A stretch of 64,000 bases of DNA from NCBI GenBank assembly GCA_001986395.2, contig MQVO02000027.1:1-64000 (forward strand). Direction: 5' to 3'. The notes below the pieces were generated by a model, which was not told the DNA's origin, did no database searches, and saw only the letters and a program-made list of their open reading frames with translations. Shown here piece after piece: positions 20,817 through 28,947 of this stretch (the stretch's first letter is position 1; each line of letters starts with the position of its first letter). Made by a program: the position numbers and the translations under genes. The DNA comes from Irpex lacteus. Lineage: Eukaryota; Basidiomycota; Agaricomycetes; Polyporales; Irpicaceae.

Positions 20817-20825
20817 CCGTCTCGG
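20817..20825 (+). repeat. Target-site duplication, left copy
   Basis: CCGTCTCGG occurs immediately before the left inverted repeat and again at 26388-26396 immediately after the right one, in the same orientation. The match is exactly 9 bp and stops on both sides. Confidence 0.9.
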
Positions 20826-20987
20826 TAGTCTCGTTAGCGCCAGACTCTCATGACATCCCAAATTGGGAACCCTGTCATGAGAGTCTGGTCTCCAGCCAGG
20901 AATGGAAGCGGGGGTCTGCGCTCAGGTCGCGCGTCACGGGCGCCTCGTAACTTCACGCCTCTCGTTCGCCCGCCACCGTCGTCTCTC
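20826..20987 (+). repeat. Left terminal inverted repeat (162 bp)
   Basis: It matches the reverse complement of 26226-26387 with one mismatch. An inner perfect hairpin lies at 20840-20888. A stretch readable as MEAGVCAQVARH is part of the repeat and occurs in both ends, so it is not a protein start. Confidence 0.95.
20840..20888 (+). repeat. Hairpin in left TIR
   Basis: CCAGACTCTCATGACA (20840-20855) pairs perfectly with 20873-20888 across a 17-nt loop. The loop contains TCCCAAATTGGGA, itself nearly palindromic. The same structure lies at 26325-26373. It may be a transposase-binding or end-processing site. Confidence 0.9.
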
Positions 20988-21078
20988 GCTTTTGCTCGTC
21001 GTTTCCTGTCGAAATGCTCTTTTGACTCTGTACACACTGTCCCTACGTGCTTCAAATATACACTTTGAAAACCTTACT

Positions 21079-23238
21079 ATGACCGAGAATCCAGCACCTG
21101 CCCTCCCTCAGCAGCAACCACCACCCCAGCGCAAATCGACTGCACCCTCTCGCCAACCGGAAGCGTCGAACTCTACAACAAGAGCTCCGCATTGCACACC
21201 AGTTGCTGCTGAAAAGGGATCTTTTCCTGCCACATCAAGTAAGAAGAAGCCACAGAAGCAGTTCCGTAACGGCTATGAAGTGAGTCCACAAGCCCTGTCA
21301 TTCGTGCCGTACAAGCTCGAGAAGAAGGCACGTAAACGGGCCAAGCCATTCTCCTTCGAAGATGGCCCAGCTGCTAAGCAGCCACGCAAACGTACAAAGG
21401 TCACAGTGGACCGCTGGAACGAGCTCGCTCGCGAAGCAGGTGTTCTTCCTGTCGACGCCACTCTGCGGGAATTTCAGATACAGTGTGCCAACCTCGTTCT
21501 TCAGGCTGGCAGGGATATCTGTGTCATTGCGCCAACTGGTGCGGGGAAATCGATGCTGTGGTGCTTGCCCGTGCTTGCCCAGCCACGCACAATCTCCCTA
21601 GTGATTACTCCTTATACAAGTCTAGGAGAACAAGGGGAAGCCGAGTACGTATTTTTTTTTTGCATCTGTATACATTAATTATCACTTATACTAGTATACT
21701 ATAGCATGAACCGCTGTGGTATCTCGTCAATTTTCATCAACGCAGATCAAAATAGCGAGACAGACCTGCAGAACGTTGCCCGCGGAGTATACAAGGTTGT
21801 ATTCATCTGCGTTGAGTCCGTCGAGACTCCGCGGTTCGCTCGGGTGTTGTACTCGAAGACGTTCAAAGAAGCCCTACAAGGAATCTACATCGACGAGGCA
21901 CATCTCGTCAAGGAATCTCTAGACTGGCGGCCAGGTTATCAGCGACTAGGTCAGCTGCGAACAGTCGTCGGAAGAGGCGCACCACTTGTCGCCATCTCCG
22001 CCACCCTTCCGTCCTCTTATCGCAGTGCTTTGTGCACGCATGCCGGTCTTGGAACAGAGCATCACCTGATCAACCTTGGCAATTTCCGTAATGAACTCTC
22101 GCTTGTCGTTCGGCCGTTACAGTACCCTGGTACCTTTCAGGATCTCGCGTTCACGGTACCAACAGGCGCCAGTTCGGCCACCATCGTGCCCACTCTCGTG
22201 TATTATGACGACACCCTGAAGCTTACCGATATGCTCTGGTGGTATCAGCACCGTCTTCAAAGTGCAGGCATACCCGATACACTGGTTGACATCATACATG
22301 CAGGGCTTTCCTCTACTCATCAAGAACTTGCACTCAAAGGCTTTCGACAGGGGCGTACGAAGATCCTACTAGCAACCGAGAAGATCGGAGCTGGTATACA
22401 TCTGCCACGTGTCGAACGAGTTGTCCAGTATCTTGCACGGAACAACCTAACGTTGGCGAAACTCGATCAACGACGCGGTCGCGGGGCACGCACAAGAGGA
22501 ATGACAGCTATAGGCTATTTTCTCGTAGAGCCAGAGCTCATTGGCGGCGACCCATCCACTTTACCGGAAGCTACGGACCCCGGTATACTTGCCCTCGTCA
22601 GAGCCGACGGCTGCTATCAAGACGTACTCGATCACTGGCTCGAAAATCCTATACGCCAGCGTCCATTCCCTTACGACATGGCAGCCCGTCTCTGCTGCTC
22701 ACACTGTCAACCCGATCTTGCGGCCATTCAAGAGTATCAATGGATAGCTGTTGATCCTGAGGCCCAAGTGAAGAACACGAGCAGTATGCTACCGGAGGTG
22801 GAACGAGAGGCTGTACTAGCTGAGCTCCACAGTATGCGGCTCACTGCTTGGCGAGAGCAGTGGCGCGTTAAGTGGCGAGGATTTGGGCCGAAGACTCTCA
22901 TTGCCAACAGTGATCTCGAAGCTGTCGCAAAGGTCGCCACAGCTATTAACTCACTCGATGATCTTCGTCCTATCACTCACATTCCCTATTGGAACGACTT
23001 TGCGCCGTGGCTCTTATCTGCGGTACAGGCAGTTGTACTCAAGCTTCGGTTGGCAGAGGACTCAGGCGAGACGGATGATAGAGAAAAGGCACGACTCGGA
23101 GAGGAACATGAGACGTTTGTAGAGTCTGCGCAAACGAACTCCGCTACCACTAATAGTACCAAACCTCGTCGTCGTCGTAATGTAAACACAAATCCAAGAA
23201 CTTTAATGCATCATGCGGAAATGTTAATAGAATTCTAA
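21079..23238 (+). CDS. RecQ-type DEAH helicase of the TIR element
   Basis: A DNA-unwinding superfamily 2 helicase of RecQ type. Exons 21079-21644 and 21705-23238 are joined across a 60-bp intron (GTACGT...TAG), giving 699 residues. A proline/lysine-rich N-terminus is followed by a Q-motif-like LREFQ segment, Walker A APTGAGKS (about residue 151), DEAH (about 252), SATLP (about 287), the motif V-like ATEKIGAGIHLP and motif VI QRRGRGAR (about 444). A C-terminal region with a WRVKWRGFG segment is unassigned. The ATG at 21079 is preferred over 20902 because the latter lies within the inverted repeat. It ends 23 bp before the 3' end of the opposing gene. In the element it could assist strand separation or repair during transposition; that role is inferred. 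Confidence 0.9.
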
Positions 23239-23261
23239 TGTACCTGTTACATGTCTACTAT

Positions 23262-26118
23262 CTATATCGGCATAGGCAAAGCCAATAACTCTTCGTCGGG
23301 AATGTCAAACAAGTCAGGTTCGACAGCAGTGTGCTCGATGTCAAGACGTGTATCGGCTGCGCTGCCAAGCTCCTCATCAGCTTGTTGCGCTAATGCAGTC
23401 TCCTCCTCTGACATCTGGGCCGGGCCATAGATTTGGCCATGACGTGTGCGAAGACGAAGCTTGTGACGCATCAAATGCTTCATGTGTCCACCGGTTTGTC
23501 CTGAGAGCTTCATTAGGCCACCGCGGAATAGGTCTGGCACTGCGTGTGATGAGGCTTTGTCCTTGGTCCAACGGAAAATATTGTTCTTTTGCATGTACCC
23601 GACAAGCTTGAGAACATCTTCGTCCTGTTTCACATGTGCGTGCCGCTGGTACATGTCTTCAACGTCTAGATCATCAAAAAGTTGTCGCACAAGTCCACGG
23701 AGTTCGCCTATGGCAGGCGTGATCTTCTCTAATAGCTTCGGAGTTGCATTAGGACCGTGTGCACGCGACTTGATCGCATTATTGAGATGCTCAACGTCCA
23801 AGTCGCCTTCCTTGAAGTTATTCGGGCGTCCGGTAGTGTTGACGATCATGGTAGATAGAAGTACGTCAGCTGTGTCGGTGGGCCAGTCGTGAATGATGTT
23901 ATGTAACAGCTCCATTGTCTCGTGAGAGTAGTTGTAGCCGCCGCCTGCGTAGTACATAGGAGCCCAGAACTTGAGTACCCGGAGAACTCGTGTTGGGTGT
24001 CCCTTCTTGATTGCGTCGCGCATTTCATGCAAAGTCATCAGGTCGTGTAGTAACAACACTGCATGACCAGACTCGGTATCCCCTTCAGTAGATTTGGTTC
24101 CGTCTGCCTCGAGACCATCAAGTGCGGGAAGGAGATATTCGTCAACAACGGCTGCGCATAGTTCTTGAAACTTTGTCGGTGTCCAGTGGTAAACAGTACG
24201 GCTGACGTCCTCCAGTTTGCGGTCCAAGTGAGCAAGAGCAGCCGAGACAGCAAGAGCACGAAGAATGACATTGAGGAACCGCAGCCATGCATAGAAGTCG
24301 TACTTGCGAGTGTTGATCCCAGCCCGGTTCGGTAGCTCATCACGTAGAGTTTGAAGGCTGAGAGCATCGGTAGCACCAGTAGTTCCCCAGTAGACCCGAC
24401 CAAAGTTCTGTATCATGTTCAGAGAGTAATGCATAAGCCCACCGAGCATCTCAAAGCATGATAGATGATCGAAACACCAAGGTGAAGTGTCAACACTCCG
24501 CTGGTCTTGTGCGGCACGATCACGAGCAGTGGTTAGACGGTCACCGAGAATAAACACCTTGATGTCTTCGAAAACGGGCTTCGGCATCTTCAGAACATCC
24601 AGAAAATAGTGCTCTAGAACGACCATATTGCCACGGGTAGAAGACTGCTCTTGATCAAATGTGGGAAGATAGTACCGACGTGTTTGCTTGGGTTCTATCG
24701 CGGCTGGGTCATCAAGTGTTCCGATCGAAGACGCAAATCGTTTGCAGCCTGGTAGGTCACCGCTGAGAAACTCGGCAATATGGTGGATAGCGTTCAGGCG
24801 GAAGGTGTCGCGGTCATTTGTGTTCGGCATGATGTCGACAAGTGACTGTTCGGCAGAGACGTTCAGTCTTGAACCGACGAGTTCCTTGAAGCGAGCGGCA
24901 CTGGCAAGATGGCGGGCAGTGAGATGCTGATATGCTGGGGGGATTGTCGGAATGATGACCATTGCGGAAACTTGATCATGTTGAAGAGTTCTGTGGAGTA
25001 CAGATACTTCGTGAGCGATTTGTTGCCAATTGTAGTTGTCATAAGGCAACGTAACAAGATTGTTCGGGTCGTTGGCAGCAGCAGAGGCAACGCGCTGAAC
25101 ATCCTTGCTAAGTGCGTTGACAGCGCGGACCTGGTACGGATAGGAGGAGCAGAGGCCGATATGATTGAAGGCTTCGAGAAGCCGCTTGGGCACTTGCTGG
25201 TCCCAGTAGACAAGTGCATTGATTGCTGCGTGGTAGTTGGTGTTACGGCTCCGCATATTGAGTAGCATTGAGGTAGTGTACGTTCGAGCCTATTAATTCA
25301 TCAATACCCACTCTCAATGAGAAGTAACAATCACGCACATCGTTTGCATCTCGTGCCGTTGAACTTCCAGAGTCCTTGTCGATGACAGCGGAAAGAATCC
25401 TCTGTGTGCGGGGCAAGGTCCGGTCGTACAAACCCGTGAGGTTTTCGAGCTTGAACGAACGGACCATGTCCACCGAGACATCCTTCGCCTTCACCCGAAG
25501 ACGTTGCGCATCACCATAGTGCGGGCCCTTTGACGCACTGTCCGTGAGGTGGCTGCACTCATGTGAGCACAGCTCGGCTGCCTTGTCAACGACCCAGTCG
25601 GACATCTTGTCGTTATACTTCTTCGCTTGCATACGTGTTCCACAGTCCCAGATGGTTTCCATGAGCCACGGTCCTCCTTTAGTACGATTCAGAAATATTC
25701 CAGTATACGTCCTAATAGCAGGGTCTTCAGATCGAAACAGTGAGTTGAGAAATCCCTTGAGTGATAGACGAGGGAATTGCTCTTTCATGAACCCGAGGAT
25801 GGCACGAACTTTCTGCTCCTCGCTCAATGCAGGCCGACGGTCTCCTGCCTCTTCTGTTCGGTCGGACTGCTCCTCATACTGCGGGACCCAGTCTGGGTCA
25901 CCAACTGGGTCGTAGTCCTCGTCATAGTCTTCGTCGGAGGAGATATCTGCAAACATGAGGTCGTACAGAGAAGGCAGAGGTGCGCCTGCAGTTGCTGGTG
26001 AGCTGGGTGGCGCTATCGAGCTTGTGTCTTCGAAGTCGAGGGCCTCAAAGTCTGAGAAACGATGAGGATTAGCCTCCTCATCCCATGTTGACAACTTAGG
26101 GCGTAGCGAGCGAGCCAT
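23262..26118 (-). CDS. DUF6589 protein, candidate transposase
   Basis: Exons 26118-25339 and 25289-23262 are joined across a 49-bp intron (GTGCGT...TAG), giving 935 residues. The acidic N-terminus is followed by a region with a conserved Trp-rich segment. The junction produces ARTYTTSMLLNMRS, and then comes a long DUF6589 domain with the YDNY motif, ILGDRLTT (about residue 508), GRPNNF and DLDVEHLNN (about 757), and RHKLRLRTRH near the end. DUF6589 is a family I know from agaricomycete genomes without an assigned function. Invariant Asp and Glu residues in predicted strand-helix settings, and its place inside TIRs, fit an RNase H-fold (DDE-type) transposase, but this is inference. The ATG at 26118 is the first in frame. 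Confidence 0.85.
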
Positions 26119-26225
26119 TGTTGTGGAAGAGCACAAAAGCGACAAGAGTATAGTATAAAATCATTTTATTAACTGAGATACGGTACAGAGGCTGGCGGGG
26201 GCTGGCAGAGGCTGACGAACGACGA

Positions 26226-26387
26226 GAGAGACGACGGTGGCGGGGGAACGAGAGGCGTGAAGTTACGAGGCGCCCGTGACGCGCGACCTGAGCGCAGACC
26301 CCCGCTTCCATTCCTGGCTGGAGACCAGACTCTCATGACAGGGTTCCCAATTTGGGATGTCATGAGAGTCTGGCGCTAACGAGACTA
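26226..26387 (-). repeat. Right terminal inverted repeat (162 bp)
   Basis: Reverse complement of 20826-20987 with one mismatch. It ends in AACGAGACTA directly before the right copy of the 9-bp duplication. Confidence 0.95.
26325..26373 (-). repeat. Hairpin in right TIR
   Basis: Arms 26325-26340 and 26358-26373 pair perfectly over 16 bp across a 17-nt loop. It mirrors the left hairpin. Confidence 0.9.
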
Positions 26388-26396
26388 CCGTCTCGG
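26388..26396 (+). repeat. Target-site duplication, right copy
   Basis: CCGTCTCGG, identical to 20817-20825. Confidence 0.9.
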
Positions 26397-27299: not shown

Positions 27300-28947
27300 A
27301 TGCCCGCCGAGAGTACCAAGTCGCCCACGTCGGCTGCGTCGCCCGCCTCTGACGTCGACCCCGCCAACAAATCCCGCCCTCCACCCCGTCCCAACCGCAG
27401 CAACTTCGACCTCGAACCCAACCCCTTCGAGCAGTCCTTCGCCCGCCCCTCCAACGACTCATCTGTCCGCACCCAGCAAAACTCGCCCTCCGCCGTCGCT
27501 GAGTCCAACGATGGCCGCACTCAGTCGCGACCAGGTTCTGCTGATAAGACATCGAGCACGACCACGCCGCCTGACAAAAACAACAAGACCGTCCTGCCCC
27601 CGCTCGCTGCGATAGCGTCGCCATCCGATGCCCACTACTCGTGGGCATTCTCCTCGTCCTCCTTTTCCAACTCTCTGCGATCGGGGCCCCTCTCTCCAGC
27701 GATGCTCACAGGGCCCCAACAGCAGTCGGAGCAGCAGCCCCTAGCAGCATTTGATCCCGCCGCTTTCAGAACGGGCCTCACTCCGCGTATGGGTCTCACC
27801 CCCGGGACAGGTCTTACACCTCTCCTCGGTGGCCCCGTCTCATTCCCACCCGCCTCTCCGAACACCGCTGCTTTCCTCTCCTCCGTCATGAACAACGGCG
27901 GCACGCCAAGCCTATCAGGCGTCGCCGGCACTATCACTCCCAACACACTCTCTGCCATTACTGGCGTACTCTCTAACCAATCTCATGGCCATGCCCAATC
28001 ACCCCTGTCGATGTCTACCGTTACATCGGGCTATCCTCCGCGATCAGACGCAAATGCTACCAACGGCAATGCCGCTGCAACGAACGGGGCCTCAGCGTCT
28101 GGCGCCAACGGCACATACCCTGCATCGGCTAACAATGCCGCACAGACGGCCACCAACGGCCTGTTCTTGCTCTCTCAAGCTCATCAAGAACTGACAAAGC
28201 GCGAGGAGGAAGCTGCTGCTGCTCTCACCGGCTCAGCGAATACGAATAGTGCGGCGAAGCGCGGTACGAAGCGAAAGAGTTATGAGGTGGAGTCTCCCGT
28301 TATCGCTGCACCACCACCTGTCTCTCAGCAAGCGCCTGCTAACGGCAAGCGGACGAGGAGCCAAACAACATCGAGCAACGGTCGGAGAGCGTCCACTGTC
28401 AGTCTTGGTGACGAGGAAGAAGAGGAGGAAGACGACGACGATATGACCAAGATTGGGAGCAGCACTAGCTCGGCACAAGGTCAGAAGAAGGGCGGCCAGA
28501 AGAAGCCTGAAACTGAGGAGGAGAAGCGGCGGAACTTCCTCGAGAGGAATCGACAGGGTAAGTATATCGTGGATCGACTGATCGTGCAGATCATGATGCT
28601 AATATCTGTTGTGTGATATAGCTGCTCTCAAATGTCGGCAACGCAAGAAGGCATGGCTTGCACAACTCCAAGCCAAGGTCGAGTTCTTGCAGAACGAGAA
28701 CGAGACCCTCAAGCAGGCCCTTGTCACCTCTCGAGAGGAGATCACACGCCTGTCTGGCCTCGTCGGCTCGGCTGGAGGTAACTCCCAGTCGTCCGTCAAT
28801 GGCAACGGCATGGTCAACGGACACGGACACCACCAGCAGATGCCTGCGTCGATGCAGGCTGGTCTGGGGAACGTCAACGTCTCGATGGCCAGCTCTGGGA
28901 AGAGCATACCTGCCATGGTTGGCGGAGGTGGTCGATTCGGATACTGA
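27300..28947 (+). CDS. atf1: Atf1/AtfA-type bZIP transcription factor
   Basis: A nuclear stress-response activator of the ATF/CREB class, in fungi usually a target of the Sty1/Hog1 MAP kinase. Exons 27300-28557 and 28622-28947 (64-bp GTAAGT intron) give 527 residues. The NPFEQSF segment (about residue 41) resembles the Aft1 osmotic-stress domain. The LTPRMGLTPGTGLTP repeats (about 160-175) resemble the Aft1 HRA domain. A low-complexity Asn/Ala/Gly region and an acidic stretch follow. The bZIP at about 410-455 has the basic region NRQAALKCRQRKK, split by the intron exactly after NRQ, and a leucine zipper starting LQAKVEFLQ. The bZIP lies near the C-terminus, as in Atf1 proteins. The assignment is firm at family level; orthology to S. 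pombe Atf1 is inferred. Confidence 0.92.

Follow-up and report, generated by a model that had tools for sequence, protein, structure and literature searches.

A RecQ-like helicase gene and a DUF6589 gene lie between long inverted repeats

We examined the first 64,000 nt of contig MQVO02000027.1 of the basidiomycete Irpex lacteus (the window), where a RecQ-like helicase gene and a gene for a protein of the DUF6589 family (PF20231; IPR046496 is, we presume, its database entry) lie together between long terminal inverted repeats (TIRs). The element proper occupies positions 20826-26387 (5562 bp), or 20817-26396 with its target site duplications. A repeat search places the left TIR at 20826-20987 (+ strand, tip TAGTCTCGTTAGCG) and the right TIR at 26226-26387 (- strand); both are 162 bp long and differ only at TIR position 143. 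The 9 bp sequence CCGTCTCGG, read at the two edges (20817-20825 and 26388-26396), is duplicated exactly and adjoins the element without a gap; since it is itself nearly palindromic, the repeat search stretches the TIRs to 178 nt. An original prediction, made from the sequence alone, had proposed a transposon with these TIRs and this duplication, and its coordinates are right to the base. Inverted repeats of 162 bp with one mismatch rule out chance as their explanation, and the 20 bp TIR tip, searched with up to three mismatches, has two matches in the window, both at the element ends (0.01 expected).

Each gene begins roughly 0.1 kb from the inner edge of its TIR; the two point inward and converge, with stop codons 23 bp apart. 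The helicase gene (+ strand) comprises exon 1 (21079-21644), with the start ATG and the Walker A sequence GAGKS, a predicted intron (21645-21704, GTACGT...TATAG) and exon 2 (21705-23238), with the DEAH box and motif VI. The DUF6589 gene (- strand) comprises exon 1 (25339-26118, residues 1-260), a predicted intron (25290-25338, GTGCGT...TAATAG) and exon 2 (23262-25289, residues 261-935 and stop). Both predictions use splice signals and the open frame rather than RNA; the DUF6589 intron has the same position in a related copy on contig C58, which the position of the helicase intron also fits. With one intron removed from each, both frames are open throughout, in keeping with the two intact spliced genes proposed earlier.

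The 699 aa helicase retains intact motifs I (GAGKS), II (DEAH) and VI. Its best family is TIGR00614 recQ_fam, at an E value of 1.3e-24 that falls below that model's own cut-off, and its best relatives among solved structures, by sequence search of the PDB, are WRN and RecQ. The 935 aa DUF6589 protein matches PF20231 with E 1.1e-86; among the matches listed, its closest is a hypothetical protein of Irpex lacteus, 98% identical. A Pfam scan of the two proteins at E ≤1 yields DEAD (PF00270), Helicase_C (PF00271), ResIII and DUF6589 and nothing else.

Related elements in the same genome have moved

The window element is a TIR transposon, because its relatives carry 9 bp duplications of their own and one of them has an empty counterpart; related units have moved, and this part of the original prediction holds. 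We searched the same genome (an assembly of 44.3 Mb in 317 contigs) and found similar TIR sequence at element copies and remnants. A second full-length element, C58:953067-958689, carries the same gene pair, is 84% like the window element in the TIR and is flanked by the duplication CGGTGCGAA; its own TIRs are 100% alike over 170 nt. A third, C170:61228-66752, has a RecQ-like and DUF6589 pair and the exact 9 bp duplication GACGTGGGC. Three remnants consisting of TIR tips alone also retain exact 9 bp duplications: a 104 bp tip-to-tip palindrome on C300 (L010 2017-2120, GGTACAACT), and two others of 99 bp on C18 (L066 1458-1556, CCGGACTTA) and 22 bp on C214 (L061 1139-1160, TGTTGTGAC). These tip-only remnants may be products of failed gap repair.

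The joined flanks of the C170 element match an unoccupied site at C53:53414-53733, which is 92% identical, continuous over the junction and holds a single GACGTGGGC; relative to C170, it has a 17-base insertion right of the junction. The other haplotype or a paralogue could account for this counterpart. Around the window and C58 copies, the same-genome search for empty sites returned their own flanks alone.

A blind scan for duplications adjoining inverted ends (16 bp ends, ≤4 mismatches) recovered the C170 and C58 elements. It gave nothing in stretches L057-L060, where the ends in L057 and L060 were found later with wider flanks; an extra 8 bp match in L009 was set aside as chance, as it falls inside the C58 TIRs. 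One-ended TIR matches were found at C308:1740156 and C213:173817 (3 kb stretches examined). The latter, a C170-type tip, lies beside a RecQ-like stretch (C213:174283-175410) that is 48% identical and has one internal stop, and no DUF6589 match is listed on that contig; the tip and the stretch are probably a broken copy. Identical 19 bp pattern matches occur on the contig pairs C1:867899/C96:5119 and C308:561106/C236:316, which may be haplotype copies left in the assembly.

The DUF6589 protein is very probably a DDE transposase

An AlphaFold model of the DUF6589 protein (pLDDT 88.6) has an RNase H-like strand order, with the predicted core broken by a long helical insertion, and the first 39 matches of a structural search with this model are all DDE transposases or RAG1. 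Near and distant DUF6589 relatives conserve acidic residues where the catalytic ones are expected, the candidates being D344, D510 and E717, all encoded in exon 2. This predicted fold and the conserved residues make DUF6589 very probably a DDE transposase; that it is a transposase had been inferred in the original prediction. Unlike a member of the hAT (Hermes) or P groups, it aligns structurally to their transposases at 7-11% identity, and its profile has no sequence match among solved structures up to E 1. We know of no hAT or P element that carries a helicase.

Long TIRs and 9 bp duplications are typical of Mutator-like elements (MULEs), and the window element is like them in both respects. 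DUF6589 as a diverged MULE-type transposase is nevertheless very improbable. In agreement with the original prediction that a Mutator-like transposase is not recognizable here, DUF6589 is the sole Pfam family found in that protein at E ≤1, with no MULE family, and Hermes and the P element outrank ISCth4 in structural matches to the model. Passages of one account state that hAT, P and MuDR share C/DxxH (PMC9587614), whereas DUF6589 has GxxH (G284 and H287 of exon 2), a placement relative to C/DxxH that is our own reading. Searches around the family gave a helicase domain in none of the 16 proteins returned in a search for natural DUF6589-helicase fusions, no true relative among 25 pattern-fitting stretches of viral contigs, and no biological paper on DUF6589/PF20231 in the literature searched, which did not extend to supplements.

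DUF6589 and RecQ-like genes are paired across several lineages

At least 71 PF20231 matches in the genome cluster into 36 DUF6589 loci. At 28 of these a RecQ-like match lies no more than 8 kb away, against 0.49 such pairs expected under uniform placement; both gene counts are lower bounds. No RecQ-like match lies within that distance at the other eight. The 28 pairs are convergent (18), divergent (8) or on the same strand (2), and some form TIR-bounded units; a search for such neighbors inside TIRs elsewhere was a check suggested in the original prediction. The helicase adjoins DUF6589 as regularly as the reverse, with 27 of the 35 RecQ-like clusters paired, which could favor a scheme in which the RecQ-like gene supplies mobility and DUF6589 is accessory or DNA-binding. 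We find this scarcely credible: the transposase-like fold and the conserved acidic residues belong to DUF6589, and we know of no superfamily 2 (SF2) helicase that cuts or joins DNA.

When the window copy is compared with the C58 copy, silent sites are saturated (pS 0.79 and 0.77 for the two genes), and we therefore give no dN/dS value, while replacement-site divergence is 0.19 and 0.25 (pN). This comparison of sequences indicates that both proteins are kept by selection, which speaks against the helicase being a mere passenger. As the original prediction inferred, the RecQ protein may be an accessory factor.

Both element ends were determined at 10 of the 36 DUF6589 loci, the window, C58 and C170 elements among them. 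Three copies of the C255 type, about 99% alike where aligned, have ends (CAGGCTCCGTCCC) quite unlike those of these elements and the duplications TGGCGCAAT, CATCTAAAA and GTCTATCTC; in the C255 copy of this CAGGCTCC-type element, a stretch of about 306 bases close to the right end (L074 368-673) is absent from the two sister copies. Two 7.4 kb copies, C185 and C229, are flanked by CACACAAAT and GGTACCACC. In a further DUF6589 and RecQ lineage, the C296 and C38 copies (L079-L082, L013) have the 8 bp duplications CTCCCGTT and TTCAAGAG; a 9-mer can be read at C296, but not at C38, if the element's last A is lent to the duplication.

Over all 13 two-ended insertions (the 10 elements and three remnants), the duplications are unrelated in sequence and are exact 9 bp repeats in 11 cases and 8 bp in two. 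Eight bp is the length made by hAT elements; hAT membership was rejected despite the similar fold, given the 9 bp duplication of the window element and the lack of any hAT family in the Pfam scan. Nor are these the TTAA duplications of Kolobok. A KolobokH element would resemble ours as a fungal DDE transposon with a RecQ helicase, being known, according to passages of the published description, from fungi only (PMC9587614). The same passages place its helicase downstream of the transposase domain (PMC9587614), whereas the helicase here is a separate gene on the opposite strand, and together with the duplications this leaves KolobokH a next to negligible chance.

Two open frames lie near element ends. 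One with an Aft1 HRA domain (PF11786, E 5.2e-20; window 27300-28616, + strand), a domain that we take to be typical of ATF/CREB-type bZIP factors, starts about 0.9 kb past the right end of the window element. The other encodes a protein kinase domain of fungal type (PF17667; L057 5856-6971), and about 1.0 kb separates it from the end of the C185 element.

Subterminal palindromes are kept by paired changes

In each TIR of the window element, a perfect 16 bp inverted repeat starts 15 bp in from the tip. The left palindrome (20840-20888) has perfect arms at 20840-20855 and 20873-20888 and was equaled by none of 60 shuffles; the right (26325-26373), found by the same repeat search and shuffle control, has arms at 26325-26340 and 26358-26373. 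The C58 and C170 elements keep the palindrome at both ends, with changes that come in pairs; in C58, for instance, CCAGACCC/GGGTCTGG stands in place of CCAGACTC/GAGTCTGG. Because the arms vary between copies of the window lineage by such paired changes, it is the pairing rather than the letters that is kept. A similar palindrome begins 12-18 bp in from each end of C185 and C229 and from the left end of C296, and none was found at the examined termini of the C255 type or at the right end of C296. Overall, it is present at 11 of the 14 termini examined, which belong to seven of the 10 resolved elements, and in three of the four DUF6589 and RecQ lineages with known ends, copies within a lineage not being independent. 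The control was a plain shuffle, 60 per terminus, and at one of the 11 termini, the left end of C185, one shuffle equaled the palindrome.

The palindrome may serve as a symmetrical site for binding or fold into a hairpin. A more speculative idea, which we hold to be doubtful, ties the helicase to hairpin-forming ends, where it would open or resolve hairpins while the ends are cleaved or the donor is repaired; the tip-to-tip remnants would be failures of that pathway. If true, this link between hairpin and helicase would give DDE transposition a route that depends on a helicase.

The element is most readily placed in AcademH

AcademH, the lineage of the Academ superfamily that bears a helicase, was reportedly described by Kojima in 2020, in Mob DNA 11:15, and the nuclease of its counterpart AcademX is of the XPG type. 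Published passages give duplications of 9 or 10 bp for AcademH and 3 or 4 bp for AcademX, and link this difference to helicase versus nuclease (PMC10045372). They also describe fungal Academ copies carrying PF00270 and recQ_fam domains, often annotated as host genes (PMC6416283), AcademH as low-copy in Basidiomycota, Ascomycota and Mucoromycota (PMC10799480), and non-autonomous Academ elements as widespread in Marasmius oreades (PMC8290104). The window element is like AcademH, as far as these passages describe it, in its TIRs, 9 bp duplications (shared by 11 of the 13 insertions), low copy number, basidiomycete host and a DEAD/DEAH helicase of recQ_fam type (PF00270, PF00271) beside the transposase; it would encode a DDD/E transposase, judging from the modeled DUF6589 fold and acidic residues, and the Pfam scan found no nuclease domain in its two proteins, as expected for AcademH. 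AcademH appears by far the likeliest home, as the element agrees with it in the kind of helicase, the length of the duplications, the host and the copy number; this assignment is set by published descriptions rather than by transposase alignment. We consider it highly probable that the element belongs to the AcademH kind and is an autonomous DNA transposon that moves by cut-and-paste, with DUF6589 as its DDE transposase.

It could instead represent a separate, unnamed superfamily, in which a DUF6589 DDE transposase unrelated to Academ gained a RecQ-like gene independently and the 9 bp duplications are coincidental. The 8 bp duplications of the C296 and C38 lineage, unlike the 9-10 bp reported for AcademH in those passages, and the lack of a biological paper on DUF6589 in the literature searched would suit such a group. 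We judge it unlikely, given that host range, recQ_fam helicase, duplication length and low copy number match the published fungal Academ and AcademH. The suggestion in the original prediction of a possibly undescribed superfamily is not supported, as published passages already describe both the 9-10 bp duplications of AcademH and the recQ_fam domains of fungal Academ elements (PMC10045372, PMC6416283, PMC10799480). What is already known is that fungal Academ elements bear helicases; what is added here is the naming of DUF6589 as the probable transposase.

Proposed mechanism and implications

We propose that the DUF6589 transposase would bind the TIRs, where the subterminal palindromes may be its sites, excise the element and join it to a 9 bp staggered cut, which host repair would fill to give the 9 bp duplication. 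The gap at the donor site would be repaired, with the tip-only remnants as possible failed products. The RecQ-like helicase might open or clear DNA at the ends or aid donor-gap repair, the weakest step of the scheme.

Fold, acidic residues, element structure and the empty site together give DUF6589, a Pfam family of unknown function, a probable job as a DDE transposase. DUF6589 proteins recur as hypothetical proteins in mushroom-forming fungi, and the species-named matches are all fungal (among the best 120 of 123 and of 311 matches). Many annotated "host genes" with DUF6589, and the RecQ genes adjoining them, may therefore be transposon genes. An intact element with diverged relatives offers a ready system for asking why a helicase gene travels with a DDE transposon.
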